From a bacterium EF100-94H03 bin56 (GTDB lineage: Bacteria; Pseudomonadota; Alphaproteobacteria; SP197), in contig MPMV01000002.1 in the NCBI GenBank assembly GCA_002238685.1, positions 62,001-126,000 of the forward strand: DNA of 64,000 nt. Direction: 5' to 3'. The notes under the pieces are model-generated. The model was not told the origin of the DNA, made no database searches, and saw only the letters and a list, made by a program, of their open reading frames with translations. Positions 10,046-59,434 of the stretch are shown one piece after another. A program made the translations under genes and the position numbers. How positions within the stretch are numbered: position 1 is the first letter of the stretch; each line of letters starts with the position of its first letter.

Positions 10046-10064
10046 CTCAACCGTCGCGGTACGG

Positions 10065-37844: not shown

Positions 37845-37854
37845 GAAGCAAGCC

Positions 37855-40327: not shown

Positions 40328-40328
40328 G

Positions 40329-43119: not shown

Positions 43120-44284
43120 AGGCGCGCACGGCGTCCCAGTTGATCTCCACCCCGAGACCCGGCCGTGTGGGAGGAAGGATTTCGCCGTTCTCCAGAACGA
43201 GATCCTCCATGGCGAGTTCACGACGGAGCTTCTCGATACACAGCTGCGGCGGAAGGAACTCGACAAAGGCGATTCCGGGGGTTGCGAAGGCCAGATGGGC
43301 GGTGGCGGACAGCGACACACCCGTTTTCCAGCAGTGCGGAACCACCGGCAAGTTCCTTTCGGCCGCCATCGCACACACCGCGCGTGCCTCGCCCACGCCG
43401 CCAACGCGCCCGACGTCCGGCTGGACGACGCCGATCCGGCCGCGCTCGATCAGATCCTCGAATTCCCAGCGGGTCGAAAGCCATTCCCCCGAGGCGATCC
43501 GGAAGGGTGCCCGGGCCGCCAGCCTGGCATGCTCGTCGAGGAAGTCAGGCCAGATTGGAGTCTCGACGAAGTAGAGGTCGAACTCCTCCCAGTCGCGCAG
43601 GACCGACCATGCCGTCTCCGCATCGCGCCACAGGTACTGCACGTCCACCATCAGCGTCATGTCCGGTCCGAGTGTCCGCCGCACCGCCGCCACAACCTCC
43701 GTGTGGCGATCGTAGCTTTCGTTCATGCCGTCGTGAGCGTAGGGGCCGGCCATGGTGCACTCGGCCTTGACGGCTTTGAAACCGAGCTTCTTCGCATTCT
43801 CGGCCGATTGGCAGAGCGCGTCACGATAGGCTTCGAAGCTGCTGCCGGCCGGCTGCAGGGATGCATAGGGAACAAGCGGGGTCGGGCGGGGATCACCGAG
43901 AAGCTTCCACAACGGCTCACCCGCGATCTTTCCGGCGAGATCCCGGAGCGCCATCTCGACAGCACCCAGCGCGTGGATCACCGCACCACGGCGTCCGTTC
44001 ATCGCCGTCATCGTGTAGACATGGTCCCAGAGAGCCTCGATGTCGCGGGGGTCCTTGCCCTTCAGCAGTTCCGCCATGCCGAGACCCATGGTGTGGGTGC
44101 CGGAAGCCTCGATGCAGGCACGTCCGATCCACGGATTGAGATCGCTTTCGCCGTAACCCTCGAGGCCCTCGTCAGTAGAAACGACGACGAGCAGGCTGTC
44201 CTGGGCTGAGGAAGTCAGACCCGGGTCGACGTCGTCGGCAACCAGAACGTGGCACGCGATGTCGGTGATCTTCACTTGCAGCAC
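43106..44284 (-). CDS. Enolase-superfamily (mandelate racemase/muconate lactonizing type) enzyme
   Basis: This 392-residue TIM-barrel enzyme abstracts a proton next to a carboxylate, usually to dehydrate a sugar acid. Metal ligands are Asp214 (LMVDVQYLW), Glu241 (YFVETP) and Glu267 (ASGEWLS). Lys170/Lys173 (KAVKAE) and the His317-Asp290 pair (PHCWKTG; QPDVGR) supply candidate bases, a mandelate-racemase-group pattern. The N-terminal capping domain (1-130) is complete. It sits between binding protein and ATPase genes of the importer, so it very probably acts on the imported solute. With an SMP-30 lactonase and SDR nearby, a non-phosphorylating sugar-acid pathway is the best guess. Confidence 0.85.
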   Translation of the reverse strand: MLQVKITDIACHVLVADDVDPGLTSSAQDSLLVVVSTDEGLEGYGESDLNPWIGRACIEASGTHTMGLGMAELLKGKDPRDIEALWDHVYTMTAMNGRRGAVIHALGAVEMALRDLAGKIAGEPLWKLLGDPRPTPLVPYASLQPAGSSFEAYRDALCQSAENAKKLGFKAVKAECTMAGPYAHDGMNESYDRHTEVVAAVRRTLGPDMTLMVDVQYLWRDAETAWSVLRDWEEFDLYFVETPIWPDFLDEHARLAARAPFRIASGEWLSTRWEFEDLIERGRIGVVQPDVGRVGGVGEARAVCAMAAERNLPVVPHCWKTGVSLSATAHLAFATPGIAFVEFLPPQLCIEKLRRELAMEDLVLENGEILPPTRPGLGVEINWDAVRAYGRP

Positions 44285-44415
44285 CCCCTGGCCGACATGC
44301 AGGTCATCCGGACGGCAACCGGAATGCCGGGCTCCGTGAGAACCGTGGACATGATTGTGCGGTTACAAACCCGGTTGAAGCCAGACCCGGATCAACCGGC
44401 CCGGACACGGTGAAA

Positions 44416-44449
44416 GGCGACGGGCATCCCACGCGGCATGCCCGTCGCC
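44416..44449 (-). terminator. Terminator-like hairpin after binding protein
   Basis: Perfect 12-base arms GGCGACGGGCAT and ATGCCCGTCGCC with a 10-base loop begin eight bases after the binding-protein stop. Only three Ts follow, so it may be a partial terminator or an mRNA stabiliser that raises binding-protein levels over the downstream operon. Confidence 0.65.
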
Positions 44450-44456
44450 CTGTCCG

Positions 44457-45461
44457 TTACTGCGCGGCCTTGACCTCGTTCCAGACACTCACCCGGCGGT
44501 CGAAGTCCTCAACCGGACGGAGCCACACCAGCTTGTCGGCGTAATCCAGTCCGGGACTTTCGTTCGTCGTGTTCCCGTATCCGTTCTTCGCGGTCATGGC
44601 CGGACCCGTCTCGCCGTTGAGGTAGTGATTGACCCACTGATGGGCGCACTCGGAGTCCTTCACGCCTTTGGAGAGGGCCCAGGTGTCGAGCCAGCCGATG
44701 CCGCCCTCATCCGGGATCGAGTACACCACGTCGTAGCCGCGATTGGCGAGTTCGACGGTCTGGAACTCGCCCATCGAGAACATCAGCGTCGCCTCGCTCG
44801 AATCCCACATGTTCACGCCTTCCTCGAATCCGGCGTAGTAGCTGATGAGGTATTGCTTCTGCTCGATCAGCTTCATCTTGACGGCATCGAAATCGGCGTC
44901 GCTGAGGTTGAATGGCTCCGCGAGTCCAAGAACGATTGCGGCGTTGGTCACATTGTTGTTGGCGTCATCGAGGGCGAGCACGTGTCCCGCGTTCTCGGGG
45001 CTCCACAGGGCTTCCCAGGAATTGACCCCGTCAGGGAACGCCTCCTTGTCGTAGATGAGACCAAGCGAGCCCCAGGCGATGGGGACTCCGTAGGTTTCGC
45101 CACCGCTCATGACTTCCGCCACCGAGCTGAACGAGGCAAGCAGGTTCGAGGTGTTGGGTATCTTTGACATGTCGAAGGGAATGATCAGGCCCTGGTCGAG
45201 GTAGCGCTCGACAATCGAGGTGTCGATCGAGACAAGGTCGTAGTCGGCGCCGTCGCTTCCCACCATCTTGGCGAACATTTCGTCCACCGACCCGGTGTAG
45301 GCCACGTTCACCTCACAGCCCGTGGCCTCGGTGAAGGGTTCCACCCATTCAGGTTCGGAATAGCCTTCGAAGCTGAAGAGCCGGACCTCCTGCGCCGAAG
45401 CCTGTGTGCCCGCGGCCAGGACGAGTGCCGCCGCCAGTTTCCATTCAAGCGATCGAAACAT
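44457..45461 (-). CDS. Periplasmic solute-binding protein, PotD/PotF type
   Basis: This 334-residue binding protein has a Sec signal peptide (KLAAALVLAAGTQASAQ, cleavage near residue 24). The mature start VRLFSFEGYSEPEWVEPF is followed by the hinge-region block YGVPIAWGSLGLIYDKEAFP. Its start codon lies inside the end of the GntR gene, so regulator and binding protein are translated together. It supplies the importer encoded at 40329-43119. The adjacent sugar-acid-type enzymes point to a hydroxylated solute rather than a polyamine. Confidence 0.9.
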   Translation of the reverse strand: MFRSLEWKLAAALVLAAGTQASAQEVRLFSFEGYSEPEWVEPFTEATGCEVNVAYTGSVDEMFAKMVGSDGADYDLVSIDTSIVERYLDQGLIIPFDMSKIPNTSNLLASFSSVAEVMSGGETYGVPIAWGSLGLIYDKEAFPDGVNSWEALWSPENAGHVLALDDANNNVTNAAIVLGLAEPFNLSDADFDAVKMKLIEQKQYLISYYAGFEEGVNMWDSSEATLMFSMGEFQTVELANRGYDVVYSIPDEGGIGWLDTWALSKGVKDSECAHQWVNHYLNGETGPAMTAKNGYGNTTNESPGLDYADKLVWLRPVEDFDRRVSVWNEVKAAQ

Positions 45462-46176
45462 GTTTCATCTCCCAGTTATCTGTTTCGTTGTGGTGCTCCG
45501 GCTGGTCTTCCGAGGACGACCACCAGCCGGTGATGTGTTCGCGCAGCACCGATGCCAGATCCGAGGGATCACCCTCGGCCAGAAACCGGCGAAGTTCCTC
45601 GTGCTGCGCGACGACGGCGTCGAGTTCCGGATGGCTGCGGATCTCGAGTCCGAAGATGATGAGAACCTGGCGCGAGATGCCTTCCCAGATGCCAAGGCCC
45701 AGTGAGTGTTCGGCCACCGACAGGGCGGCGCGGTGAAAATCGACATCGGCGCGCTGGACCTGCTCGACGTTTCCGTCCGCAGCACCCTTGCGTATCTCGT
45801 CCAGGGCTCTGTCGATCTCCGCGAAACGGGAGGGGTCGGCGCGCAACCGGGGCATCGCCTCGGCAAGCAGCATCGTCTCGAGCGAGATGCGCACACTGCA
45901 CACCTCCCGGATCTGGCGATCATCAAAGGCGGCGACTTTCCAGCCTCGTCCCGGAGAGGAACTCACAATTCCCTGCAACCAGAGCTCGCGCATGGCCTCA
46001 CGGACCGGAACGCGGCTCACGCCGAACTCGGCGGCGAGACTCTCCTCGACGAGGCGGTGACCGGGCGGCAACGCACCGATGGCGATCGCGACGATAAGCC
46101 GGTCGATGACCTCGTCGGTAACCAGGCGCCTGCGGATCGGCGTGATCGGAGCCAGTCCATGATCGCGTTGTCGCAT
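45445..46176 (-). CDS. GntR-family (FCD domain) transcriptional regulator
   Basis: This 243-residue protein has an N-terminal winged helix (LVEESLAAEFGVSRVPVREA, then MRELWLQGIVSS) and a C-terminal all-helical FCD ligand-binding domain. The latter has the metal-site pattern with Asp in RADVDFHRAAL and later His residues. FCD regulators respond to carboxylates such as sugar acids, which fits the neighbouring enzymes. It is the first gene of the operon and divergent from the SMP-30 gene; an inverted repeat overlaps its start codon, indicating autoregulation. Confidence 0.88.
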   Translation of the reverse strand: MRQRDHGLAPITPIRRRLVTDEVIDRLIVAIAIGALPPGHRLVEESLAAEFGVSRVPVREAMRELWLQGIVSSSPGRGWKVAAFDDRQIREVCSVRISLETMLLAEAMPRLRADPSRFAEIDRALDEIRKGAADGNVEQVQRADVDFHRAALSVAEHSLGLGIWEGISRQVLIIFGLEIRSHPELDAVVAQHEELRRFLAEGDPSDLASVLREHITGWWSSSEDQPEHHNETDNWEMKHVSIA

Positions 46177-46202: not shown

Positions 46203-46245
46203 GTGAGTAAAGCACGACAAATGACACGCAAGGGAACTCTTGACC

Positions 46246-47145
46246 ATGCCGTTCAGGATCATCCGCCACATTGCCGCCGCAGCCCATCTGGGAGAGGCGC
46301 CGCTGTGGCTTCCGGCTTCCGGCGTATTCCTGTGGCTCGATCTTCACGGCCGAGAGGTGCACCGCTTCGATCCGCAAAGTGGAAGCGACCGGGTGGTCGC
46401 GAGCGGATTCACCGAGAACCTCGCGTGTCTTGTTCGCCTGAACGACGGGTTCGTTCTTCTTGTGACGGCGACGCAGTTCCTGCGCCTCGATCCTGCAAGC
46501 GGCGTCACAACGCCTCTGCCTGCAGCACTCCGGCCGACCGCGGGAACCTGCTTCAATGACGGCAAGGTCGCCCCTGACGGGGCCCTTTGGATCGGGACTT
46601 CGGATGTCGGAGAGGTCGATCCGGCCGGATCGCTTTACCGCGTGAGCGCCAGTGGCGCCGAATGTGTTGACCGGGGCTTTGTCGTCGCGAACGGCCCGGC
46701 ATTCTCTCCCGACGGCGGGGCTGCGTACTTTGCCGACACCGTGGGTGGCCGGATTCTGCGCTACGCGCTCGATGCCGCAGGGCGCCCGGTCGAACGTACG
46801 CTGTTCGCGAAGGTTCCGGCCGACAAGGGCATGCCCGACGGCATGACCACCGACAGCGACGGACTCCTCTACAGCGCCCATTGGCAGGGCAGCTGCATCA
46901 GCGTCCGCGATCCCGAAGGCACGACGGTGGAGACGATCGCGCTTCCGGCCGGCAACGTCACGTCCTGCGCTTTCGGAGGCGAGGACGGATCGCTGCTTCT
47001 TGCGACCAGCGCGGCCCGGGACGATGACGACGGTCCCAGCTCACCGCACGGCGATGCGTTCGTGCTCCGTGGCCAGTCCAGGGGGATGCCGGAGCCACAG
47101 TTCGATTCGGCCTGGCTCGGAAGGGAAGGCCCCCCGCAACCATGA
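46246..47145 (+). CDS. SMP-30/gluconolactonase-family protein
   Basis: This six-bladed beta-propeller lactonase (about 299 residues) would open sugar-acid lactones. Metal-site motifs include the Glu of HLGEAPLWLP near the N-terminus, the Asn of CFNDGKVAPDG followed by ALWIGT, and NGPAFSPDG before AYFADT. I start at the ATG at 46246; a TTG two codons earlier is in frame. It is divergent from the GntR-led operon and shares its control region. A dehydrogenase (SDR), this lactonase and the enolase-superfamily dehydratase form a plausible three-step route from an aldose to a 2-keto-3-deoxy acid. Confidence 0.87.
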   Translation: MPFRIIRHIAAAAHLGEAPLWLPASGVFLWLDLHGREVHRFDPQSGSDRVVASGFTENLACLVRLNDGFVLLVTATQFLRLDPASGVTTPLPAALRPTAGTCFNDGKVAPDGALWIGTSDVGEVDPAGSLYRVSASGAECVDRGFVVANGPAFSPDGGAAYFADTVGGRILRYALDAAGRPVERTLFAKVPADKGMPDGMTTDSDGLLYSAHWQGSCISVRDPEGTTVETIALPAGNVTSCAFGGEDGSLLLATSAARDDDDGPSSPHGDAFVLRGQSRGMPEPQFDSAWLGREGPPQP

Positions 47146-47213: not shown

Positions 47214-48272
47214 CTACCGATCACGATGAGCGTAGGCCCGGGCCAGGCGGTCCTTCAGGTCAGCGACGAAACCTGTCGTCAGGGCGGCATCGTGGGCTAT
47301 GGAGTGCCAGAGTCCGACCTGGTTGACATAGGACCGCATCGTCATCAGACCCTCCTCGAGCTGGTCCCACGTCAAGCCCATCGCCTCGGGGCGAATGTCG
47401 AGGCCGATGCCCGAGATGGTATCGAGCATTTCCTCGGCTCCGGCATCGTGCAGCATCGAGCCGACGATGACGCCGAGGCACACGGGCTGACCGTGGAGGA
47501 ACTTCTTCCCCGTCAGTTTTTCCAGTGTGTAGAAGAGGAAGTGGTCGGTTCCCTCGATGTGGCGGGGACACCATCCCGACCCGTGATAGCTCGTACCCCA
47601 TTTCAGTCCGTCGGCCAGTGCGTCGATGCCACGGTCGTTCATTGCACGGATGTTGTCGATGTTCCCGACGACCGTCCTGACCTTCGCCAGCGACTGCCTC
47701 GCCAGGTTCTCGTCGAACCGCCACTTTTCTTCGACCTTCCCTTCCCTCTCGGCATAGCGCCAGTCCAGAACCCCGGTGTGAAAACAGAGGATGTCGCCGA
47801 TTCCCGACCAGTTCAGCGCCGGCGGACAGCCGGCAAGGACATCGTAGTCGATGTAGATGGCCTGTGGCACGGCCCAGCCGCGATAGGCGACCCGTCCCTG
47901 GATCCGGACTCCCGAACGCTGGCCGTAGACGGCATTCACCGACAGGGCCGTCGGCGCCTGGAAGAGCGGCAGGTTCAGGCGCCACGAAAAGTACTTCGCG
48001 ACGTCCAGCGCCTGGCCTCCACCGAGCCCGACGATGGCGCGCACCTCGCCGAGGCTCGCGGCCTCCCGGTCAAGGTCGGCCTGTTCGATCGACCCGCAGA
48101 AGTAGGGCCTGCAGTCGGCGCCGGAAAAATGACGCGAGAAGAGTGGCCAGAGATCGTCCATCGTGACCACGAGGAAAGGCGGATTGACGAAATGGCGGAA
48201 CTCGTCCAGCAGACCGCGACCAAACACGGTCGGAAAGCCGTAGGCAAGGTCCTGGGCGTGATCGTGAGGCAA
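47214..48272 (-). CDS. Glycerol-1-phosphate-dehydrogenase-like (iron-containing ADH fold) protein, copy 1
   Basis: The protein belongs to the AraM/glycerol-1-phosphate dehydrogenase branch of the metal-dependent alcohol dehydrogenases. It has the NAD-loop VGLGGGQALDVAKYFSW, the metal/substrate region SGIGDILCFHTGVLDW and SGWCPRHIEGTDHFLFYTLE. It would interconvert a polyol (or its phosphate) and a ketone. I prefer the TTG at 48272 (SLPHDHAQD context, preceded by GGGAGAG), giving about 352 residues; the frame is open to 48368. It is the last gene of the operon and clearly paralogous to the gene at 51149-52192. Confidence 0.78.
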   Translation of the reverse strand: MPHDHAQDLAYGFPTVFGRGLLDEFRHFVNPPFLVVTMDDLWPLFSRHFSGADCRPYFCGSIEQADLDREAASLGEVRAIVGLGGGQALDVAKYFSWRLNLPLFQAPTALSVNAVYGQRSGVRIQGRVAYRGWAVPQAIYIDYDVLAGCPPALNWSGIGDILCFHTGVLDWRYAEREGKVEEKWRFDENLARQSLAKVRTVVGNIDNIRAMNDRGIDALADGLKWGTSYHGSGWCPRHIEGTDHFLFYTLEKLTGKKFLHGQPVCLGVIVGSMLHDAGAEEMLDTISGIGLDIRPEAMGLTWDQLEEGLMTMRSYVNQVGLWHSIAHDAALTTGFVADLKDRLARAYAHRDR

Positions 48273-48388
48273 ACTGGTCTCTCCCGTGCTTGCGGCATGC
48301 CGGTCGTTCAGACGGCGCCGTGGGTCCTCAATCGTGGATCGGGTTTCGGCGGCTGTCGTGGCCTGCACCGCTGACGCAATTGGCCGCG

Positions 48389-49600
48389 CTACAGGGCGCC
48401 ATCACGGTTCCCCGACCAGCTCAGGATCGCGGCCTCGCGGGCGAGCTTGACATCACTCCAGCTCTGGCGACGGCCATCACCTCGTGCCTGGAAGCGGTCA
48501 ACTTCCTCCCGGATGGCGACGGCGACCGCAGCGGCTTCCGCATCGGTCAGATTGCAGGGGTCGAGGTAGAGTTCCTGCCTCTCGACGAGATCGTCGCGTA
48601 CCACGATCCCGGGAGTCCGGGCGGCAAGCCGGGCGGCCAGTTCCCAGGCATGGAAACCCGAGTTCCGGGGCGCGATGGTGATGCGGAGACGCGTGATCGG
48701 GTTGCCGGTCCAGTCGGCATGGGTGGTGACGCAGACGCCAGGCATGTCCGCGAGTTCGCGCATCCAGTGGGCCACCCGCGTCTCCTCGGCACGCCGGACG
48801 GCGTCATGATCGCGTTTTTCCCACAACTCGAGCGCCGCCATGGCGCCGACAACACTCTCCTTGCCTGCTTTCATCGTCCGTCCGATTCCGCGGTGCTGAA
48901 GATAGGTGGCACGAATGAGATCGGAGCTTCCCGCAACGACGGCGCTGGTGACTCCCGACAGGAACTTGTGGCCGGAATGGATCACGGCGGATGCACCGAG
49001 TTCGATGGGTCCGGTCAGGTCGTGCTCCGAGGCCATGTCGACGATCGCCGGCACGCCATGCTCGCGGCACAGGTTGATGAAGACATCCATGGGAAGCTCG
49101 TTTTCGCGCACGGTATGGTGCGAGACGATGTACATGGCCGCTGCCGCACCAGCCGCCAGAGCGTCGGCGAGGTGCCAGGTCTCGCAGGCCGCAGCGGTGC
49201 CCACGGGAACGACCTCGGCCCCGGCAAGGCGGATCGCCTGATCGATCGGCGCGCCATAGTTCACCATGTGTCCCATGGGCAACAGGACACGCCGCTCGCC
49301 GGCCGCCCAGGGCAGCGCCTCGATCCTTGCCAGATCCGCGCCCGTGAGACATGCGGCGACCGTCTGCGTCATTGCGGCCGCGGAACACGAGGCGATGCAC
49401 CCCGCCTGAGCCCCGGTCACGCGTGCGATAACGGAGCCTGCGCGCGACTGCAGCTCGTCCATGTCGACGAAGGAGGCGAGGATCCGGTCGACGCACGCAC
49501 GTACGTCACAGGGAACCCTCGATGCACCGATGCGGGTCATCGTCCCGGAAGCATTGATGACCGGGGTGAGATGCCAACGGGCGAAGGGGTCGTCTGTCAT
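48389..49600 (-). CDS. SelA-like PLP-dependent enzyme (ammonia-lyase/aminotransferase fold)
   Basis: This 403-residue fold-type I PLP enzyme is in the SelA/DgaE neighbourhood. SelA itself makes selenocysteyl-tRNA, but operon-borne relatives are catabolic, such as D-glucosaminate-6-phosphate ammonia-lyase. The opening VINASGTMTRIGASRVP is typical. The PLP aspartate is Asp188 (AIVDMASEHD) and the Schiff-base lysine is Lys212 (IHSGHKFLSG). SCSAAAMTQTVAACLTG forms the phosphate-binding loop. Its start overlaps the ATPase stop by four bases. A RidA protein in the same operon suggests that it releases an enamine or imine. The substrate is unknown. Confidence 0.8.
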   Translation of the reverse strand: MTDDPFARWHLTPVINASGTMTRIGASRVPCDVRACVDRILASFVDMDELQSRAGSVIARVTGAQAGCIASCSAAAMTQTVAACLTGADLARIEALPWAAGERRVLLPMGHMVNYGAPIDQAIRLAGAEVVPVGTAAACETWHLADALAAGAAAAMYIVSHHTVRENELPMDVFINLCREHGVPAIVDMASEHDLTGPIELGASAVIHSGHKFLSGVTSAVVAGSSDLIRATYLQHRGIGRTMKAGKESVVGAMAALELWEKRDHDAVRRAEETRVAHWMRELADMPGVCVTTHADWTGNPITRLRITIAPRNSGFHAWELAARLAARTPGIVVRDDLVERQELYLDPCNLTDAEAAAVAVAIREEVDRFQARGDGRRQSWSDVKLAREAAILSWSGNRDGAL

Positions 49601-50640
49601 GGCAGCCGTTCTCCGGTCGTGCTGTCGAAAGCGTGAAGACGGTCCGGCCGGAGCGCGAGCGACAGCGTCTCGCCGGCACGGACCACACCGCGTATGTCAC
49701 CGCTGGTCCGAACGGTCAGGTGCGCACCACGGACATTGCCGAGATGGACAAGCGCCTCGTGGCCAAGGTCCTCGATCCTGTTGACGCGTGCCTCACCAAC
49801 CGGGACCGCGCCTTCGGTCAACCCGATCAGGAGATGCTCTGGCCGGATTCCGAGCGTTGATCCACGACCGCGATCGACCGTCGCTGCGGCATCGCCCAGG
49901 AGGTCCTCCGCGTCGAGGAGGTTCATTCTCGGACTGCCGATGAAACCGGCGACGAAGGTGTTCCGCGGTCGTTCGTAGAGTTCGGTGGGAACGCCGACCT
50001 GCATGATCCGGCCCCGGTTCATCACCGCGATCCGGTCACCCATCGTCATGGCTTCGACCTGGTCATGGGTCACGTAGACCGTCGTCGTCGTCAGCTGGCG
50101 CTGCATCTCGGAGATTTCTCCTCGCATCTGAACCCTGAGCTCCGCATCGAGATTGGACAGCGGCTCGTCGAAGAGGAACGCATCCGGCCTGCGAATCATG
50201 GCGCGTCCCAGGGCAACACGTTGCGCCTGGCCACCTGAAAGCTGGCGGGGTTTCCGGTCGAGCAGCTCGCCGAGGCCCAGCGTGTCGGCGACGCGCGCAA
50301 CCTCGGACTTGACGGTGGCGGGATCGGTCTTCCTGACTCTCAGTCCGAAGGAAAGATTGTCGCGCACCGACATGTTCGGGAACAGCGCATAGGACTGGAA
50401 CACCATCGAGATGTTGCGCTGCGCGGGCGACAGATGGTTGGCGCGTTCACCGCCAATCATCAGGTCGCCCGACGAGATGGATTCGAGACCCGCGATCATC
50501 CGGAGCGTGGTCGACTTGGCGCAGCCCGAGGGGCCGACCAACACCATGAACTCTCCCTCGTGGACGTGCAGGTCGAGGCCGGAGATGACCTCGACATCGC
50601 CGTAGCTCTTCGCAACGTCCAGAAACCGGATATCTCTCAT
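49597..50640 (-). CDS. Sugar ABC transporter ATPase, MalK/UgpC type
   Basis: This 347-residue ATPase has signature [13 protein letters not shown], Walker [13 protein letters not shown], switch His in [16 protein letters not shown] and a C-terminal MalK-type regulatory (TOBE) domain. Its Walker A reads GPSGCAKST: Ala41 replaces the usual last Gly of GxxGxGK. The neighbouring residues are normal, and several MalK-like sequences tolerate this. It powers the permeases at 52196-53931, although RidA and dehydrogenase genes separate them. Confidence 0.88.
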
Positions 50641-51152
50641 CGGGATGTGTTCCTGTCCGGGGAGATCGAGACGATCGCATCGATTTCGACGGTGATGTTG
50701 CCGGGCAGGGACCCCATGCCAACTGCCGTGCGCGCATGTCTGCCCCGTTCACCGAAGACATCGCAAAACAGGTTGGAGCAACCGTCGATGACCGCCGGAT
50801 GATCCACGAAATCGGGGCCGGCATTGACCATGCCGAAGACGCGTCGAATCTGCACGACGTGTTCAAGCGAGCCGAGGATTTCCTTCATCACGGCGATCAG
50901 CACGAGTCCGGTTCTCTGCGCGTGGTGGAACGCTTCATGGACCGGAACATCAAGCCCGACTTTGCCGGTCGCCAGTCTGCCGCATTCCAGTAGCGGCCCC
51001 TGACCCGACAGATAGAGCGTCGTGTCGGCGATGGAACCGAGATCGAAATTTCCGACCGGTGCGGGCGCCGCGGGGAGGACATGGCCGAGGACGGCGAGCC
51101 GCCGGTCCGCGACACTCTCCGGGTGAGACGATTCGCGTCGTGGTGTGTTCAT
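50637..51152 (-). CDS. RidA (YjgF/YER057c/UK114)-family protein
   Basis: RidA proteins hydrolyse reactive enamines/imines, for instance those released by PLP enzymes. This member has 171 residues, longer than the usual 130 because of an N-terminal extension. The catalytic-type arginine is Arg141 in ARTAVGMGSLPGNITVE, the family's closing block. LYLSGQGPL is the usual second strand. Its position between the ATPase and a dehydrogenase, with a SelA-like PLP enzyme in the operon, supports a role in finishing that enzyme's deamination. Start and stop overlap the neighbouring genes by four bases. Confidence 0.85.
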   Translation of the reverse strand: MNTPRRESSHPESVADRRLAVLGHVLPAAPAPVGNFDLGSIADTTLYLSGQGPLLECGRLATGKVGLDVPVHEAFHHAQRTGLVLIAVMKEILGSLEHVVQIRRVFGMVNAGPDFVDHPAVIDGCSNLFCDVFGERGRHARTAVGMGSLPGNITVEIDAIVSISPDRNTSR

Positions 51153-52192
51153 GCGGCAAAAGCTCCCTCAATCCTGTCACGGGCAGCGCTCAGGAACTCT
51201 TCTGTCACGTCGAAGTCGTTGGCGATGCCGTAGGCGAGGCTCTCCCGCTCGACGAAGGTCTTCAGCCCGCGCACGGCTTCGAAGACGTCGCGCCACGTCA
51301 CGTTCATGGCGGCGGGGCGAATGTCGAGGCCAAGACGGGTTACCGCGCCGAGCAGTTCATCAACACGCTGACCGTGCATCATCGCGCCGAGAACGAGGCC
51401 CAGACACACCGCCTGGCCATGCAGGAACGTTTTCCCCGTTCCCGCTTCGAGGGCATAGAAGATGTAGTGTTCGACACCTTCGATGTGACGCGGATTCCAG
51501 CCGGCTCCGTGGTAGGAGGCGCCGCCCCATTTCAGGCCATCGACCAGAATCCGGATGCCCCGCGGCGAAAGCGTCCTGATTTCGTCAAGTTCGGCCAGCG
51601 CCGCCTCGGCCTTCGCCAGCGAGATGGCCGCAAGGCTGTCATCGTAGGGCCAGCGTGGCTCGCACTTTCCCCGGGCCTCGGCGTGACGCCAGTCCATGAC
51701 GCCTGTGACGAAGCACAAGACGTCGCCCACGCCGCCAACGTTGAGCGCGCGGGGGGCGGACTCGATGATGTCGAGATCGATGTAGACGGTCTGCGGGACC
51801 GCCCATCCGACATACCTGACGATGCTGTCTTCCCGGATCCCCGCACGATGTCCGAAGACGGCATCGACGGAAAGTGATGTCGGAAACTGGAAGAGCGGCA
51901 GGTTGCGACGCCAGGCGACATACTTGGCGGCATCGATCGCCTGACCACCTCCCAGACCGACGACCGAGGCAACGTCCGCCAGCGTCTCGAGATCGGCTTC
52001 CAGCACAGCACGTTCCATGGAACGCACCATGTAGGGCACGGCATCGTCCGGCAGGGAGTCGCGAAAGAGGGGCCAGAGATCCTCCATCGTCACGACCAGC
52101 ATGTGCGGACGCACGAAGTTCGCCGCTTCACGTAGAAGGTTGCGTCCGAAGACGGTCGTAAACTGCGGGATATCGGATTCCTTGAACGGCAT
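51149..52192 (-). CDS. Glycerol-1-phosphate-dehydrogenase-like (iron-containing ADH fold) protein, copy 2
   Basis: This 347-residue paralog of the gene at 47214-48272 shares VVTMEDLWPLF, VGLGGGQAIDAAKYVAWRRN, GGVGDVLCFVTGVMDWRHAE and SYHGAGWNPRHIEGVEHYIF. The histidines of the last block are the likely metal ligands. Two different copies in one operon suggest two successive or parallel oxidations of related hydroxyl compounds. It begins immediately after the permease gene (three bases) and overlaps RidA by four bases. Archaeal-type lipid synthesis is unlikely in this setting. Confidence 0.78.
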   Translation of the reverse strand: MPFKESDIPQFTTVFGRNLLREAANFVRPHMLVVTMEDLWPLFRDSLPDDAVPYMVRSMERAVLEADLETLADVASVVGLGGGQAIDAAKYVAWRRNLPLFQFPTSLSVDAVFGHRAGIREDSIVRYVGWAVPQTVYIDLDIIESAPRALNVGGVGDVLCFVTGVMDWRHAEARGKCEPRWPYDDSLAAISLAKAEAALAELDEIRTLSPRGIRILVDGLKWGGASYHGAGWNPRHIEGVEHYIFYALEAGTGKTFLHGQAVCLGLVLGAMMHGQRVDELLGAVTRLGLDIRPAAMNVTWRDVFEAVRGLKTFVERESLAYGIANDFDVTEEFLSAARDRIEGAFAA

Positions 52193-52195
52193 GGT

Positions 52196-53053
52196 TCAGC
52201 CCTTGACTGCGCCAAGGGACAGCCCCTTGACGATGTGTTTCTGTGCGGCGACTGCGAACAGCAGCATCGGCACGATGGCAATGATCGACGCGGCTGTCAT
52301 CGCACCCCAGTCAAGCGCCGCATAGCCACGGAAACTCGTTATCCCGAGCGTGACCGTCTCCGCCCTGGAGAATGTCAGGCCCAGTGCGATGGCAAGTTCG
52401 TTCCAGATCCAGATGGCGTTCAGGACGGCCGTGGCAGCCATCCCGGGCAGGGTGCACGGTACGTAGATCCTCGTCAGGATCTGCCAGTTGGACGCGCCTT
52501 CGATGCGCGCGGCCTCGTCGATGGCCGGATTGATCTCGCGGAAGAACGAACTCAGGAGCCAGATCGACAGCGGCAGGACATGCACCTGGTACATGAGGGC
52601 GAGGCCGACATGGGTGTCATAGAGCCCTGTCCACTGGTAGAGAGAGAACATCGGAATGACGAAGAGAAATTCGGGAAGCATGTAGGCAAGGATCAGCCAG
52701 ACGCCGACGAGGTTCCGGCCCCTGATCTTCATCCGAACGATGGCATAGGCGGTCGGAATGGCGATGGCGAGCGACAGGGCCACGCCGATGGCCGTGATGA
52801 TGACGGAGTTCAGGAACGTGTACTTGAACGTCTCGTGGCTCCAGAGCTTGAGGTAGTTGGCCGTTGTCGGATCGAAGATCCAGAGCGGAGGGCTGGCAAG
52901 GCCATCGCGCCTGGACTTGAGCGAGACCGTCAGCACCCAGTAGACCGGGAACAGACTGAACAGGATCATGGCGCCGGTGAAGGCATAGGCCCACGCCCGG
53001 GAGAGGCCTTGTCCCCGACCGTCGTGGAACTGCAGGGCGGTGCGCGCCGTCAT
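52196..53053 (-). CDS. Sugar ABC transporter permease, MalG/UgpE type
   Basis: This 285-residue permease has a first helix AYAFTGAMILFSLFPVYWVL. The EAA loop is INPAIDEAARIEGASNWQIL, followed by the MalG-type tail VTLGITSFRGYAALDWGAMT and then AAQKHIVKGLSLGAVKG. It overlaps the upstream permease by four bases. The CUT1-type transporter would import an oligosaccharide, polyol or sugar derivative. Confidence 0.9.
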   Translation of the reverse strand: MTARTALQFHDGRGQGLSRAWAYAFTGAMILFSLFPVYWVLTVSLKSRRDGLASPPLWIFDPTTANYLKLWSHETFKYTFLNSVIITAIGVALSLAIAIPTAYAIVRMKIRGRNLVGVWLILAYMLPEFLFVIPMFSLYQWTGLYDTHVGLALMYQVHVLPLSIWLLSSFFREINPAIDEAARIEGASNWQILTRIYVPCTLPGMAATAVLNAIWIWNELAIALGLTFSRAETVTLGITSFRGYAALDWGAMTAASIIAIVPMLLFAVAAQKHIVKGLSLGAVKG

Positions 53054-53931
53054 GCGGCGTCTTCACCGCGCCGCTGCAGCGCCTGCAACGCCAAAGAAAT
53101 GACGAGAATAAGGAGCGAGAACAAGATCATCGTCGCCATCGCCTTGCCGATCTGCTGATAGCTGTACGCGGTACGGTAGACGAAGGTCTGCACGACTTCG
53201 GTTGCCAGGGCCGGTCCGCCACCGGTCGTGCCGAAAACGATGTCAAAGACCTTCAGGGTGTCGATGGCGCGGATGATGACGACGGTGATCAGCAGCGAGC
53301 GAAGCATCGGCAGCTTGATGAACCAGAAGATGGTGAACTCGCTCGCACCCTCGACACGGGCAGCCTCGACAGGCTCCGCCGGCAAGCTTCGCAATCCGGC
53401 AAGCATGATGATGAAGACGAAGGCGGTCTGCCACCAGACATCGACCGCGACGATGGATGCCATCGCCGTTTCTGCGGCTCCGTAGAAGGCCGAAGGGCCC
53501 AGGCCGAACACACCGATCAGGTGATTGATGATGCCGAGGAAGGGATCGAACATGACCTTCGACATCAGGGCAACGACGATGCCCGAAACCATGAGCGGCA
53601 GCATGATGACCGCGCGGATAAGATCCGTCCGGATGGCCAGCCTGTCTACTTGCACCGCGAGGTAGAACCCCAGTGCGATCTCGATGGCCGTCGCCGAGGC
53701 GGCGAACACCACCGTGTTCCTCATGACGCTCCAGAACTCGGCGTCGGCGAGAAGGTTGGCATAGTTCGCCCAGCCAACAAACTCGAACTGGTTGCCCCAG
53801 TTCCAGTTGGTGAACGACACCGCCAGTCCGAACCCGACGGGGTAGACTGACGTGAACGCGAGAACCAGGAGGCAGGGCAGGACGAACCAGAAGGCCGATG
53901 CGCTGCCGAGGCACCTGAGCGCAGACGTCAT
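53050..53931 (-). CDS. Sugar ABC transporter permease, MalF/UgpA type
   Basis: This permease of about 293 residues starts at the ATG at 53931, preceded by GGAGAG; the frame is open to 54081 over the end of the binding-protein gene. The first helix is ASAFWFVLPCLLVLAFTSVY. SFTNWNWGNQFEFVGWANYA is the classic MalF-type periplasmic start. The EAA loop is AEPVEAARVEGASEFTIFWF. It pairs with the MalG-type subunit and the ATPase at 49597-50640. Confidence 0.9.
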   Translation of the reverse strand: MTSALRCLGSASAFWFVLPCLLVLAFTSVYPVGFGLAVSFTNWNWGNQFEFVGWANYANLLADAEFWSVMRNTVVFAASATAIEIALGFYLAVQVDRLAIRTDLIRAVIMLPLMVSGIVVALMSKVMFDPFLGIINHLIGVFGLGPSAFYGAAETAMASIVAVDVWWQTAFVFIIMLAGLRSLPAEPVEAARVEGASEFTIFWFIKLPMLRSLLITVVIIRAIDTLKVFDIVFGTTGGGPALATEVVQTFVYRTAYSYQQIGKAMATMILFSLLILVISLALQALQRRGEDAA

Positions 53932-54016
53932 GGTGCTCTCCGGACCGGAAAGCTGGATGAACTTCCCGGAAAGATGCCCCGGATGGCAGGAAATTGCCAT
54001 CCGGGGCGAGGCGCAT

Positions 54017-55384
54017 TCAGTTGGCGAGCATTGTCTCGAAGTCGGCCTGGGCCGAGGCGCCGGCCTCGGCTGGGTCCGCACCGCCGTAGATGTCCTGAAT
54101 CACGTCAACGATGCGCAGCGCGAACTCGCTCCAGCCGGCGCGCTGAACAACCGACGTCTGCGAGTTCGGCATGGCCGCAGCAACGGCGTCGACATACGTC
54201 TGGGGGAAGCTCGCCGCATACTCGGGATCCTGCCACGTCGACAGACGCGGGGCGCCGCCGTGCAGCTTGCCGATGGCAGTCGCGTTGTCGGTGTTCGACA
54301 TGTACTGGATGAAGAGCCAGCCGGCATCGGGCGACGCGGCGTTCTGCGGAATTCCGAAACCCCATTGCCAGTGGGCCGTGTAGGGCGCGCCCTCGGCGTT
54401 GTCGACGGGGATGACCGAGTAGCCGATCCTGCCGGCGACAAGGCTGTCGTCCGGGTTCTCGAAGCCGGGCGCGAAGAGGCTTGCGTCAATGAAGAACGCC
54501 GCACCGCCGGCCATGAAGAACTGCGAGGCATCGGGCCAGTCCATGGCCTGGATGTTGACGGGACCGGCTTTCATCAGTTCCGCATAGTTCGCGAGCCCCC
54601 GCACGATATCGGGATCGTCCATCCTCGGCTTCGACCAGTCGCCGTCGAACCAGACGTTGTGGGGAGCGGAGCGGTCGGCCGCACCGACCGAGTTGTTCAC
54701 GAAACCGGTGACGGTATCGATCAGCGTGTCCGACCGGATGCCACGGAGGACGGCGCCCGCGATGGCGCCCTCGCTTTCCTCCTTCACCTCGCGCGCCGCT
54801 GCGATCAGTTCTGCCATCGTTGTCGGCATCTGGCCGTCAAGATACTGGTTCACGTGATCCATGTTGGCGAACAGGATGTAGGTCTCGAACGATGCCGGGA
54901 TACCGTGGTACTCCCAACGGCCGTCGATGTCGTACTTCGTTGCATCAAGGAAGCCTGCCGGGATGTCATCCAGATTGTAGTCGGGGGCCGTGAGATCGGG
55001 GCTGTCGATGAAACCCTGAAGGGAATGGACGAGGCCATTGGTGTGCTGGGTGTAGGCCGTGGAATCCATCGGCAGGAAGTAGACGTCCATCTGCGAGTTG
55101 CCGCCGGAGCCGCGCAGCGCCACTTCCATGCGGTCGAAGTAGAGATCTTCGGCCATGGTCTGCAGGGTGACGTCGATCCCGGTGTCGGCCTCAAACTGGT
55201 CGAGCACCACACGCACGCCGTCGGTGACGGGATGTTCCGGCATCATGACCGTGATCGACTCTCCCGAGAGCTGGTCCCACGAAAAGTCGGCAGCGGCGAC
55301 CGTGGCACTGACCGCAAGGGCCACCGACGATGCGGTGACCAGCTTGGTCGCTCTGACAAGGGCTCCTCTCCGCGATGTGTTCAT
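54017..55384 (-). CDS. Sugar ABC transporter substrate-binding protein (CUT1 type)
   Basis: This extracellular binding protein (about 455 residues) leads the operon. The ATG at 55384 follows a GGAGG site. The signal has an RR pair (NTSRRGALVRATKLV) and a hydrophobic run ending AVSATVAAADF. The mature part opens ESITVMMPEHPVTDGVRVVL and has the DQFEADTGIDVTLQTMAED and YFLPMDS blocks of family 1 binding proteins. An inverted repeat just upstream is a likely operator for the divergent GntR regulator. The ligand is not deducible. Confidence 0.88.
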   Translation of the reverse strand: MNTSRRGALVRATKLVTASSVALAVSATVAAADFSWDQLSGESITVMMPEHPVTDGVRVVLDQFEADTGIDVTLQTMAEDLYFDRMEVALRGSGGNSQMDVYFLPMDSTAYTQHTNGLVHSLQGFIDSPDLTAPDYNLDDIPAGFLDATKYDIDGRWEYHGIPASFETYILFANMDHVNQYLDGQMPTTMAELIAAAREVKEESEGAIAGAVLRGIRSDTLIDTVTGFVNNSVGAADRSAPHNVWFDGDWSKPRMDDPDIVRGLANYAELMKAGPVNIQAMDWPDASQFFMAGGAAFFIDASLFAPGFENPDDSLVAGRIGYSVIPVDNAEGAPYTAHWQWGFGIPQNAASPDAGWLFIQYMSNTDNATAIGKLHGGAPRLSTWQDPEYAASFPQTYVDAVAAAMPNSQTSVVQRAGWSEFALRIVDVIQDIYGGADPAEAGASAQADFETMLAN

Positions 55385-55422
55385 CGTATCCTCCGTGTGT
55401 TCTGACAGCCTGCTGACCAGGC

Positions 55423-55466
55423 ATTGGTCAACCGGATTTTCCAGGAACGGAAATCGGTTGACCAAT
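55423..55466. promoter_or_regulatory. Perfect 12-base inverted repeat, candidate GntR operator
   Basis: Arms ATTGGTCAACCG (55423-55434) and CGGTTGACCAAT (55455-55466) are exact reverse complements 20 bases apart. Each arm contains GGTCAACC or GGTTGACC, a half-site shape common for FadR-type GntR proteins. The repeat lies 39 bases upstream of the binding-protein gene and 105 bases before the regulator. Confidence 0.65.
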
Positions 55467-55570
55467 TGGCGCAGATGCTCAACCATTTGTCAATTCCCGT
55501 GTTCGTCGCCACGTGAGCATGACGCTGCCCTCCCGGAGCGCGGCCGGAGGGTCATTCGAAAGGAAACGTC

Positions 55571-56263
55571 GTGTCGATTGCCTTTGATGTGACCGACCGG
55601 GTTTATCGGGAGATCCGCGATCTCCTGCGCTCTGGCGACATTCTGCCCGGCCAGAGACTGCCCAACGAGCGCAAGCTGGCCGAGATGAGGGGGGCCTCAC
55701 GCACCCAGGTGCGCGATGCGCTTCTCATGCTCCAGAAGGAAGGGCTGGTCGAACGCAAGATCGGCAGCGGCACCTACCTGTCCGAGCGTGCGCCCCAGAT
55801 CATCGAGCTGGCAGACGCCGCGGTCCACATGTCGCCCGAGCGCTCCCACGGTTTCCACGAGACCCTTGAGGCGCGGCTGCTGGTCGAGCCATCGGTCGCG
55901 GCACGTGCCGCCGAGTCGCCGACACCGCAGTTCTGCACGGATCTCGAGGCGGCGCTGGAACGCATCCTGGCGGCGCCTACCTGGCTCCAGTTCAAGGAGG
56001 ATATCTACGCCTTCTCACGCCTCTACTACGTTGAGGCGGGCAACGACTTCCTGTGCTGGACCTTTGATCAGATTGTGGCCGCCCGTCGCGCGAACAAGTT
56101 TGACGGCGGGAGCGACCAGGCTCCGGTGGCCAACATTGTCCGCAAGCATTTCCACGACCGTCTGTCGAAGATTGCGGATGCCATAGCTTCCGGGGATCCC
56201 CAACGGGCCAGAGCCGAAGTGGAGAGCTTCCTGGTCGCCATGGCCGCTTCGTTGGCGCTTTGA
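55571..56263 (+). CDS. GntR-family (FadR/FCD type) transcriptional regulator
   Basis: This 230-residue regulator is divergent from the sugar-transporter operon. The winged helix is LPNERKLAEMRGASRTQVRD, then ALLMLQKEGLVERKIGSGTYL. The C-terminal FCD-type domain includes ETLEARLLVEPSVAARAAES and VRKHFHDRLSKIADAI, whose His residues match the metal/ligand site. The GTG start at 55571 follows AAAGGAAA. It most likely represses the operon at the inverted repeat between them and is released by a pathway metabolite. Confidence 0.87.
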   Translation: MSIAFDVTDRVYREIRDLLRSGDILPGQRLPNERKLAEMRGASRTQVRDALLMLQKEGLVERKIGSGTYLSERAPQIIELADAAVHMSPERSHGFHETLEARLLVEPSVAARAAESPTPQFCTDLEAALERILAAPTWLQFKEDIYAFSRLYYVEAGNDFLCWTFDQIVAARRANKFDGGSDQAPVANIVRKHFHDRLSKIADAIASGDPQRARAEVESFLVAMAASLAL

Positions 56264-56854: not shown

Positions 56855-57827
56855 CGCGTCAGCCTCCCGCAGGTATGTCCCGTGATGTCCATGTCGTCCT
56901 TCACTCCCGACGTGCACCTGATGCGCAGTTTGCCTGTTTCCATCAGTCAGCCGTAGTCCGAAGGTATCTACTCGACGCGTCCGCCTTGCTGCAATGGCGA
57001 AGTGAGACCGTCGATGCGCCCGAACAGATCGTTGGGCCACAATGGGCTCACAATGAACTCGATGTCCTCGCGGTGAACAGGGTTCTCTGTGCCGCACGCC
57101 GGAATTCGGCTGCGCGCGATGCCGTCGAGCTCGACGCACCGCTCGGCCCGCTGGTTTGGGCGGTGAGCGGCAAGCCACCCGACATGGCGCCCCCGTCCAT
57201 ATTGCGCGCCATTCGTGCCAACACCTTCGGCTACGTCGAGGAAGAGGTCGAGACCGTGCGTATGGAGGACGGTTCCAGGATGGAATGGCGGCGTCTGCGA
57301 CGAGTACTTGACCAGGCATTGGAGGTTGCCTCGGACTACTGCGCGCATATCGCTCCCATGAACATCCCGGCCGCCTGTTCGTCGAGGCTGATGACGCCAC
57401 GATCACTGACGGAACGGCCATGGCAAGGGCCATTCGGAATTCTTCCGGCATTCCGGTGATCGAAGGCAACTGACGGGAGCAGATCTTCAGTTGCGGCACT
57501 CTCGTCAGAGTCGTGGCTGATGCTTGTTTCGACATCTTCTGACGTCCCGCTGGCATCAATCGACCTTTCACCCTGGGACGCTCGGGATCACGATCAATCC
57601 TTCGTTGCGCACCACTGATCGACGGGACCGTGCAGGCCCTCGAAGCCGCGGTGTGTGCAGCATCTCCACTGCATGGCCGGCCTGCACCCAACCAGCGTTG
57701 CCGTTCAGGCATTGGTATCGAGCGTGCCGTCCGGGTCCGTCAGCGAATGAGCCGTCGACGAGCGCCATTACGGGAAAAGTCGTCGATCGCCTACAAGTAA
57801 AGTTTGTCTTCGTTCGACGACAATAGT
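56855..57827. other. Long stretch without a recognisable gene
   Basis: Nearly 1 kb separates Trm112 from hipB. A 194-residue forward frame (56875-57459) and overlapping reverse frames are open, but none shows a recognisable domain, ribosome-binding site or consistent codon bias. A fragment reading [20 protein letters not shown] at about 57385-57450 hints at a decayed gene. It interrupts an otherwise compact housekeeping cluster. Confidence 0.4.
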
Positions 57828-57848
57828 ATGAAGTTGGCGTTCGACGAC
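57811..57848 (+). repeat. Direct repeat around the hipB start
   Basis: CGTTCGACGAC occurs at 57811-57821 and 57838-57848, 27 bases apart, flanking the ATG at 57828. HipB binds repeated sites near its own promoter, so these may be operator half-sites; the second copy is inside the coding region. Confidence 0.35.
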
Positions 57849-58151
57849 TTTCGTAAGATCATGAGAATCCGAACCCCCCTGGACATCGGTCTGGCCATCC
57901 GCGACAGACGCCGCAAGCTCAAGCTGAGCCAGGCCGCGCTCGCCCGCAAGACGGGAGTCGGACGACAGTGGATTGTCGCTGTCGAGCACGGCAAGTCCCG
58001 TGCCGAGCTTGGCCTGGTTCTCCGCATCCTTTCCGTCCTCAAACTTCCGTTGACGATTGGACCCGACCATCGCCGGCTTGTGTTGGACGACGGCCCCGAC
58101 CCCGTCGATATTGACGCAATCGTGAATGCCGCCAGGGACGACCGCACGTGA
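57828..58151 (+). CDS. hipB: HipB-like Xre-family antitoxin
   Basis: This protein of about 107 residues has a helix-turn-helix: IRDRRRKLKLSQAALARKTG, then VGRQWIVAVEHGKSRAELGL, the typical HipB core. It would repress the operon and inhibit HipA. I use the ATG at 57828; a TTG at 57804 is in frame. Its stop overlaps the GTG start of hipA. A C-terminal tail (DGPDPVDIDAIVNAARDD) is longer than that of E. coli HipB, a common alphaproteobacterial form. Confidence 0.85.
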   Translation: MKLAFDDFRKIMRIRTPLDIGLAIRDRRRKLKLSQAALARKTGVGRQWIVAVEHGKSRAELGLVLRILSVLKLPLTIGPDHRRLVLDDGPDPVDIDAIVNAARDDRT

Positions 58152-59434
58152 CGAAGCTTCTTTTCGTCATCACCGATCGCCGGATCATGGGTGAGATCCG
58201 GCGTGACCGACGCGGCCGTCTCACATTCGTCTACGATGATCGCTGGCGATCCCTGGATAATGCCTACCCGCTTTCTCTCTCGATGCCGCTAGCCGCTTCC
58301 GAACATGAACACGCAAGGATCGAACCCTGGTTATGGGGGTTGCTTCCCGACAACGAGTTCATTCTGGACCGCTGGGGACAGCGGTTTCATGTATCGCCCC
58401 GCAACGCATTTGCCTTGCTCGGTGCGGTTGGGGAGGACTGCCCGGGTGCCATCCAACTGGTACGACCGGGCAGGGTCGACGATGTTCTCCAGGACGTTGA
58501 TCAGCAGATTGAGTGGTTGACCGAAGCCGACATCGCCGAACGCCTGCGTATCCTGAGACAAGATCAGGCGGCGTGGCGCATACCGCGCGACACCGGCCAA
58601 TTCAGTCTCCCCGGCGCCCAGCCGAAGACGGCGCTCATGTTCGACGGTCAGCGCTGGGGCGTTCCTTACGGCCCTGTGCCGACGACCCACATCCTGAAAC
58701 CGCCGCTGGATGGACTCGACGGTCACACCGAGAATGAACACCTGTGCCTGGCGCTGGCCCGGGCACTCGGATTGCCTGCGGCGCGCTCGGAGGTGCGTCG
58801 ATTCGAGGATGAACCGGCAATCATCGTGGAGCGATATGACCGACTCAGGCGCGCCGGTTCTATTCGGCGCCTTCACCAGGAAGACATGTGCCAGGTCCTT
58901 GGGATTCCCCCGACAAGGAAGTACCAGAATGAGGGCGGTCCCGGGTGCGCCGAATTGAGCGAGGCGATCCGGACGCACTCAGGAGAACCCGGTGACGACG
59001 CGTGGACCTTCGCGCGCGCCATCATGCTGAACTGGATCATCGGCGGCACCGACGCCCACGCAAAGAACTTCTCCATGCTCATCGGCGCGGCTGGTCGGGC
59101 GCGCCTGGCACCGCTCTACGACATGGCAAGCACACTGCCTTACGGATTCGATCCGATGAAGCTGAAGATGGCGACCAGGATCGGTGGCAAGTACCGGTTG
59201 GAAGAGGTCCGTTCACGCCATTGGGCGACCTTCGCAACACATGTACGCCTGCCGCCCGCTGAAGTCCTCGCCATGGGAATATCCATGGCCGAAACGGTTC
59301 CGGCGGCGTGTGGCAGGACAGTGGCTGACGCTCGGGCCAATGGGCTCGACCACCCAATTCTGCAGAGTATGACCGACATACTGAGCGCTCGCTCGAGTCT
59401 TTGTGCACGTGTCCTGGCAGCGCCGACCGGTTGA
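58148..59434 (+). CDS. hipA: HipA-like serine/threonine kinase toxin
   Basis: HipA phosphorylates an aminoacyl-tRNA synthetase (glutamyl-tRNA synthetase in E. coli) and induces persistence. This 428-residue protein has the N-terminal subdomain and the P-loop-type QFSLPGAQPK with Ser153, the likely autophosphorylation site. Catalytic GTDAHAKNFS carries Asp302, and the metal-binding Asp325 is in LAPLYDMAST. All key residues are present, so it looks active. The GTG start overlaps the hipB stop. The module has been placed into a gap of the conserved LON-thioredoxin-Trm112 cluster. Confidence 0.88.
   Translation: MTKLLFVITDRRIMGEIRRDRRGRLTFVYDDRWRSLDNAYPLSLSMPLAASEHEHARIEPWLWGLLPDNEFILDRWGQRFHVSPRNAFALLGAVGEDCPGAIQLVRPGRVDDVLQDVDQQIEWLTEADIAERLRILRQDQAAWRIPRDTGQFSLPGAQPKTALMFDGQRWGVPYGPVPTTHILKPPLDGLDGHTENEHLCLALARALGLPAARSEVRRFEDEPAIIVERYDRLRRAGSIRRLHQEDMCQVLGIPPTRKYQNEGGPGCAELSEAIRTHSGEPGDDAWTFARAIMLNWIIGGTDAHAKNFSMLIGAAGRARLAPLYDMASTLPYGFDPMKLKMATRIGGKYRLEEVRSRHWATFATHVRLPPAEVLAMGISMAETVPAACGRTVADARANGLDHPILQSMTDILSARSSLCARVLAAPTG

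Follow-up and report, generated by a model that had tools for sequence, protein, structure and literature searches.

A candidate locus for the catabolism of an aminated polyhydroxy compound in an alphaproteobacterium of the SP197 lineage

Results

An importer operon with two dehydrogenases, a PLP enzyme and a Rid protein

We analyzed 64,000 nucleotides (hereafter the window) of the genome of bacterium EF100-94H03 bin56, an alphaproteobacterium of the SP197 lineage (contig MPMV01000002.1, positions 62,001 to 126,000), and focused on a minus-strand operon at 47214-55384. Reading from 55384, it encodes a solute-binding protein (SBP), two permeases, the dehydrogenase FeADH1, a RidA-type protein, an importer ATPase, a pyridoxal 5'-phosphate (PLP) enzyme and a second dehydrogenase, FeADH2 (Table 1). 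The original prediction had described a divergently regulated operon that joins a CUT1-type importer to a PLP enzyme, RidA and two dehydrogenases. Inspection of open reading frames (ORFs) located every one of these genes, and Pfam and NCBIfam assigned the corresponding families: SBP_bac_1, two BPD_transp_1, a UgpC-type ATPase, a PF14588 Rid protein, two PF13685 proteins and a DgaE-like PLP enzyme. SBP_bac_1, two BPD_transp_1 proteins and a MalK/UgpC-type ATPase with a TOBE domain in a single operon identify the transport genes as a CUT1-type ATP-binding cassette (ABC) importer. Neighboring genes overlap by 4 bp at four junctions (permease/permease, FeADH1/RidA, RidA/ATPase and ATPase/PLP), so that the overlaps said to tie the enzymes to the ATPase are present and include FeADH1/RidA as well; gaps of 3 bp and 20 bp separate the second permease from FeADH1 and the PLP gene from FeADH2.

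Table 1. Genes and leader element of the operon and its surroundings, in window positions.
Feature	Position	Strand	Basis
GntR/FCD-family regulator, divergent from operon	55571-56263	+	PF00392 and PF07729
AATTGGTCAACCGATT, 16-bp near-palindrome in SBP-operon leader	55452-55467	.	Read directly
SBP, CUT1 type, signal peptide	54017-55384	-	PF01547; start at conserved ATG
Importer permease 1, UgpA/MalF-like	53050-54081	-	PF00528, NCBIfam
Importer permease 2, MalG/GlcU-like	52196-53053	-	PF00528, NCBIfam
FeADH1, glycerol-1-phosphate dehydrogenase/glycerol-dehydrogenase-fold NAD(P) dehydrogenase	51149-52192	-	PF13685, AlphaFold2, Foldseek; ligands D157, H242, H258; D110
Rid1-type imine/enamine deaminase	50637-51152	-	PF14588; catalytic Arg R141
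Importer ATPase, UgpC/MalK type	49597-50640	-	NF008653, 434 bits (cut-off 432)
PLP enzyme, DgaE/Cap15 branch of SelA-like proteins, PLP lysine K212	48389-49600	-	TIGR01437, AlphaFold2, Foldseek, tree
FeADH2, FeADH1 paralogue	47214-48368	-	PF13685; metal ligands kept, Asp110 to Asn
SMP-30/gluconolactonase, convergent with operon end	46240-47145	+	PF08450, E=1.6e-58
Second GntR/FCD regulator, heads neighboring operon	45445-46176	-	PF00392 and PF07729
PotD/YdcS-type SBP of second importer	44457-45461	-	NCBIfam; homologue c24 in L060
Enolase-superfamily (mandelate racemase-like) candidate sugar-acid dehydratase	43106-44284	-	NCBIfam, PDB matches
Second importer ATPase and two permeases	40329-43404 (frames 41995-43404, 41147-41998, 40329-41150)	-	Assigned by reading ORFs
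Short-chain dehydrogenase/reductase (SDR)	39551-40345	-	NCBIfam; cluster c17

The longest ORF of the SBP begins at 55486; alignment of the leaders places a conserved ATG, preceded by GGAGG, at 55384, and this is likely the translation start. The nearest PDB relatives of the SBP, at low identity, are the sugar/sorbitol-binding proteins 5iai and 4rya. The divergent GntR/FCD regulator occupies the same place in L018/L019, where it is 97% identical. In most of seven aligned leaders the near-palindrome and a TTGACA element (55488-55493 in the window) are conserved, as are the blocks TTGACA-AATGGT and AATTGGTCAACC. We infer an operator role here and treat the near-palindrome and TTGACA element as a candidate operator/promoter. 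An Rfam search of the window matched no structured RNA.

The gene set recurs as a unit

Two other genomes of the genus retain the gene string at 88-97% identity, and further alphaproteobacterial metagenome-assembled genomes (MAGs) carry it at 50-90% identity; judged from isolate names, many of the carrier MAGs appear to be sponge-associated. A scan of ~85,000 species, one genome per species, yielded 63 FeADH loci. Importer, FeADH1, FeADH2, PLP enzyme and RidA are found together in 10 loci, all alphaproteobacterial (the window, L022, L024, L025, L026, L034, L038, L040, L042 and L060), among which L034 and L038 have the set rearranged as two divergent arms, and L060, from a MarineAlpha5 genome, encodes proteins only 35-56% identical. 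The neighborhood test attached to the original prediction, which turned on whether these genes rarely occur together, thus came out in its favor. The operon is not a chance assembly.

Within the class, FeADH is rare: at E<=1e-25, 2 of 385 genomes match, one of them the window's own and the other through a contig of 4.5 kb. PLP relatives turn up more often, with matches at E<=1e-40 in 20 of 385 genomes, again counting the window's own. A contig of 4.5 kb (L046/L020, 1-4545) carries an FeADH2 95% identical and an SMP-30 protein 86% identical to those of the window, beside a transposase-like ORF, and is binned to another family; it is a candidate for recent transfer or mis-binning.

FeADH1 and FeADH2 share the fold of polyol dehydrogenases

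FeADH1 and FeADH2 are 52% identical and fall into two separate clades within Pseudomonadota. The AlphaFold2 model of FeADH1 (mean predicted local distance difference test score, pLDDT, 94.8) matches glycerol-1-phosphate dehydrogenase (G1PDH) and glycerol dehydrogenases in Foldseek (5fb3, 3ce9 and 4rgq; template modeling [TM] scores 0.73-0.77), and the same superfamily takes in the 3-dehydroquinate (DHQ)- and valiolone-synthase folds. The metal ligands (D/E157, H242 and H258) are kept in 48 of 48 alignment rows. Fold, GGG nucleotide motif, Asp/His/His ligands and a PF13685 score above cut-off place both proteins in the Fe-ADH_2/G1PDH-fold superfamily of metal-dependent polyol dehydrogenases. 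They share fold and metal ligands with G1PDH/AraM and glycerol dehydrogenases, but identity is only ~20%, the G1PDH equivalog model NF002022 gives FeADH1 121 bits and FeADH2 98 bits against a cut-off of 413, and the FeADH genes stand alongside amino-group enzymes in operons of catabolic importers. The label "G1PDH-like" in the original prediction therefore survives as a statement about fold only; a true G1PDH, with a role in archaeal lipids or sn-glycerol-1-phosphate use, was ruled out by the NCBIfam score and the gene context. At position 110 the FeADH1 group has Asp where FeADH2 and most relatives have Asn, a split that suggests divided roles for the two paralogues.

The PLP enzyme lies near both DgaE and Cap15

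The model of the PLP enzyme (pLDDT 87.3) falls in the same fold branch as Cap15 (8t7j; TM 0.83/0.91, 31% identity) and DgaE (7lc0; TM 0.80/0.87, 33% identity), and a profile of its family scores DgaE at 323 bits and Cap15 at 290. Cap15 is an O2-dependent PLP enzyme that acts on a beta-hydroxy-alpha-amino acid (PMC6384614, PMC7497351), namely glycyluridine (PMC7497351); the DgaE substrate, taken from the PDB entry name, is glucosaminate-6-phosphate. The operon enzyme scores under the DgaE cut-offs (equivalog NF047797, 244 versus 600 bits; subfamily TIGR01437, 278 versus 385 bits) and under that of SelA (TIGR00474, 28 versus 268 bits). With a TM score to SelA of only ~0.6, this poor match ruled out a SelA role in selenocysteine synthesis, and the missed NCBIfam cut-offs together indicate that none of the operon proteins is a true G1PDH, DgaE or SelA. 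The tree gathers the PLP enzymes of the operons, except that of L060, into a single clade (SH-aLRT 99), with DgaE and Cap15 grouped together outside it; the L060 enzyme sits on a long branch whose placement is uncertain. Because the enzyme is almost equally near Cap15 and DgaE in sequence and model, either lyase or oxidase chemistry would be possible. The earlier "SelA/DgaE-like" assignment thus holds at the level of the DgaE/Cap15 branch, and the ammonia-lyase reading attached to it is putative. Elsewhere, the PLP enzyme is matched in 240 plasmid records, and L042 carries two DgaE-branch PLP genes (1-801 and 9141-10346), the first of which is truncated by the contig end and lies outside the operon clade.

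The adjoining Rid protein resembles Rid1 proteins, its PDB matches including PA0814 and ACIAD3089, which deaminate imines in vitro (PMC5619798). Like them it retains the catalytic Arg: R141, equivalent to the RidA Arg105 required for imine hydrolysis (PMC4433059, PMC5619798), is invariant in 11 Rid homologues, as expected of an imine-hydrolyzing Rid protein. A general adjacency of PLP enzyme and RidA was rejected: among the class-wide PLP loci RidA is detectable, within a flank of ~1.5 kb, only in L095 and L097, so adjacency is no general rule of the PLP family. In the literature, we found no report that links Rid1 by genomic context to DgaE-like enzymes or to FeADH. Plasmids of Thalassospira, Rhizobium and Aminobacter (L085, L086 and L087) carry a DgaE-branch PLP gene with RidA adjoining or nearby and ABC importers, without FeADH.

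The system probably extends into the neighboring operon

A neighboring operon on the same strand spans 39551-46176, and the SMP-30 gene lies between the two. Its enolase-superfamily protein is under the cut-off of every NCBIfam galactonate, arabinonate and talarate dehydratase model (best, galactonate dehydratase, 158 versus 311 bits); a 56% identical homologue adjoins FeADH2 in L060. There, an enolase of the same cluster, SMP-30, an aldose epimerase and a PotD-type SBP all adjoin the FeADH, PLP and RidA genes. An SDR homologous to that of the window sits between the PLP and FeADH2 genes in L024, L025, L038 and L042 and after the PLP gene in L080, and the ATPase and permease genes of the second importer are syntenic in L018/L019. 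Because of this conserved linkage we count SMP-30, the enolase-superfamily enzyme, the SDR and the PotD-type importer in the system, and on this reading the boundary originally drawn at 47214 does not hold. The neighboring operon, SMP-30 and the FeADH operon would then make up one system.

Other phyla place different amino-handling enzymes beside FeADH

At least one amino-handling enzyme lies within 6 kb in 46 of the 63 FeADH loci; the other 17 have none. Chloroflexota carry FeADH beside an importer whose SBP and permeases are ~50-57% identical to those of the window, adjoined by a DegT aminotransferase, nearest to 3-amino-5-hydroxybenzoate (AHBA) synthase and 2-deoxy-scyllo-inosose aminotransferases, and by a Gfo/Idh/MocA protein whose best NCBIfam model, under its cut-off, is inositol 2-dehydrogenase. 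In Bacillota the partner is a class-III aminotransferase, joined in L083 by a kinase and NagB. NagB also lies beside FeADH in L032, GlmS/NagB-II-like SIS proteins with a ROK kinase and GH4 in L072-L074, and a PIG-L deacetylase in L033, L034, L038 and L072. A conserved large protein without a Pfam match (cluster c7; 954 aa in L057) lies near FeADH in L057 and 16 other Chloroflexota loci. In L036, titled Mycobacterium sp. KBS0706, FeADH groups with Pseudomonadota and is adjoined by NagB-like and DegT genes; the organism label may be wrong.

Discussion

With moderate confidence, we interpret the locus as a substrate-induced catabolic system for an aminated polyhydroxy compound: an amino sugar, an amino-sugar acid or a close relative. 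The CUT1 importer would take up this compound, and FeADH1, FeADH2 and probably the SDR would oxidize its hydroxyl groups in NAD(P)-dependent steps, with the SMP-30 lactonase opening any lactone formed. The PLP enzyme would then strip the amino group, most likely by a DgaE-like alpha,beta-elimination of water from a beta-hydroxy-alpha-amino unit, and the enamine or imine released would be hydrolyzed by Rid1 to a keto compound and ammonia. The enolase-superfamily enzyme may dehydrate a sugar acid, and both branches could reach 2-keto-3-deoxy acids. Other phyla would have retained this family of dehydrogenases, and in many cases the importer as well, and swapped the nitrogen-removing enzyme.

The co-occurrence in 10 loci and the exchange of amino-handling enzymes beside FeADH relatives in other phyla support an aminated polyhydroxy substrate. 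So do DgaE and Cap15, the PLP enzyme's two relatives of solved structure, both of which act on sugar-type amino acids; the retained Rid Arg, the conserved FeADH ligands and the linkage of SMP-30 and enolase in the distant L060 point the same way. The original prediction of an amino-polyol or amino-sugar-like molecule that is oxidized twice and deaminated is therefore supported in its substrate class; double oxidation is no more likely than oxidation followed by re-reduction by the FeADH pair. Several observations weigh against our interpretation. The SBP has only sugar SBPs of low identity as relatives, the alphaproteobacterial operon has no kinase or aldolase, and L023 and L080 keep the string but lack a RidA gene at the place between FeADH1 and ATPase (in L080, FeADH2 is missing from the available stretch as well). 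Chloroflexota loci have FeADH and importer without PLP lyase or RidA, and in Verrucomicrobia FeADH occurs with an APC amino-acid-type permease, which a hexosamine would fit less well than a smaller amine. Matches to amino enzymes number 66 in the inner and 1 in the outer neighborhoods, a descriptive count only, because the query families were picked from these same neighborhoods and many MAGs are related. Finally, the PLP enzyme may resemble Cap15 in its chemistry and act as an O2-dependent oxidase or oxygenase.

This last option, in which an amino acid is converted to an imine or amide and RidA hydrolyzes the imine, draws on a closeness to Cap15 in fold and sequence that equals that to DgaE; we consider it unlikely, given the higher profile score of DgaE and a tree that, with DgaE and Cap15 grouped apart from the operon clade, does not favor Cap15. 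A more plausible alternative, which we still hold to be less probable than our interpretation, is an unphosphorylated 2-amino-2-deoxyaldonate route, where the SDR or FeADH oxidizes C1 to a lactone, SMP-30 opens it, and a DgaE-like step, helped by RidA, yields 2-keto-3-deoxyaldonate and ammonia. DgaE is one of the nearest relatives with a solved structure, an SMP-30 gene lies next to the operon and recurs in the L060 cluster, which also has the aldose epimerase, and the lack of a kinase would fit. However, enzymes of the G1PDH/glycerol-dehydrogenase type oxidize alcohols rather than anomeric carbons, SMP-30 stands outside the FeADH operon itself, and the DgaE equivalog score is far short of its cut-off.

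The DegT and Gfo/Idh/MocA partners in Chloroflexota, together with the DHQ- and valiolone-synthase folds of the FeADH superfamily, bring to mind aminocyclitol catabolism, in which FeADH would oxidize a ring hydroxyl beside the amine of an inosamine-like cyclitol and the resulting alpha-aminoketone would be deaminated by the PLP enzyme or the Chloroflexota DegT. We regard this as doubtful, since the other FeADH partners (NagB, SIS, PIG-L, ROK and GH4) are sugar enzymes, known relatives of the PLP enzyme use carboxylate-bearing alpha-amino acids, and SMP-30 and a sugar-acid-dehydratase-type enolase are ill-suited to a carbocycle. It is similarly improbable that the amino enzymes are incidental, with FeADH1 and FeADH2 using an amine-free polyol and PLP enzyme and RidA serving another compound from the second importer. 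The plasmid-borne PLP and RidA pairs beside other importers and the 17 FeADH loci without a nearby amino enzyme would fit such a division, but 4-bp overlaps bind FeADH1, RidA, ATPase and PLP enzyme, the linkage persists through rearrangement in L034, L038 and L060, and several unrelated amino enzymes recur by FeADH. More speculatively, and at long odds, the G1PDH-fold pair might oxidize the hydroxyl next to the amine to give an alpha-aminoketone, deaminated by a carboxylate-independent DgaE-branch PLP enzyme with RidA finishing, within an old, multi-phylum dehydrogenase module whose nitrogen-removing enzyme is exchanged by lineage.

Our interpretation of the locus as catabolic for an aminated polyhydroxy compound sets it beside, and apart from, several described systems. 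With DgaE and the dga operon it shares the PLP fold branch and an amino-sugar-acid logic; it differs in a PLP enzyme below the DgaE equivalog threshold, in the absence of a kinase, in linkage to FeADH and RidA, and in an ABC importer where dga uptake is by a phosphotransferase system. Cap15, the PLP monooxygenase-decarboxylase of capuramycin biosynthesis, has the fold branch and a sugar-linked substrate in common with it, but belongs to a biosynthetic cluster and depends on O2, and RidA is absent from the published shared-gene table (PMC6384614). The pairing of DegT and Gfo/Idh/MocA with FeADH in Chloroflexota recalls the aminocyclitol aminotransferases and inositol dehydrogenases of the hygromycin A pathway (PMC10949010); those systems are biosynthetic, whereas FeADH loci are importer-linked and the operon of the window has no DegT. 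Every part belongs to a known family, and the combination appears undescribed as far as our searches reached: literature searches for this gene set returned nothing on point, in keeping with the earlier claim that no known pathway has exactly this set.

The "glycerol-1-phosphate dehydrogenase-like" dehydrogenases, as this family is mostly called, probably belong to amino-sugar-type catabolism in Pseudomonadota, Chloroflexota and Bacillota, and the locus supplies testable substrates for them. It also points to cooperation between a Rid protein and a DgaE/Cap15-branch enzyme, two partners that occur together in some rhizobial plasmids as well. In sponge-associated carriers, such a route would bear on the supply of carbon and nitrogen to the symbiont from the host or from dissolved matter.

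Elsewhere in the window, an HTH_3 protein followed by a HipA-family protein forms a HipBA-like pair just past the regulator of the operon (57804-59434, plus strand). Two FAD-oxidoreductase/GCV_T fusions resembling dimethylglycine/sarcosine dehydrogenases stand in a row with an MttB-family methyltransferase at 32857-39438 (plus strand), genes likely to serve methylamine or betaine demethylation. At 12152-14467 (minus strand), a single protein combines a DMFA2_C domain (N,N-dimethylformamidase beta-like) with a laminin-G-like domain.

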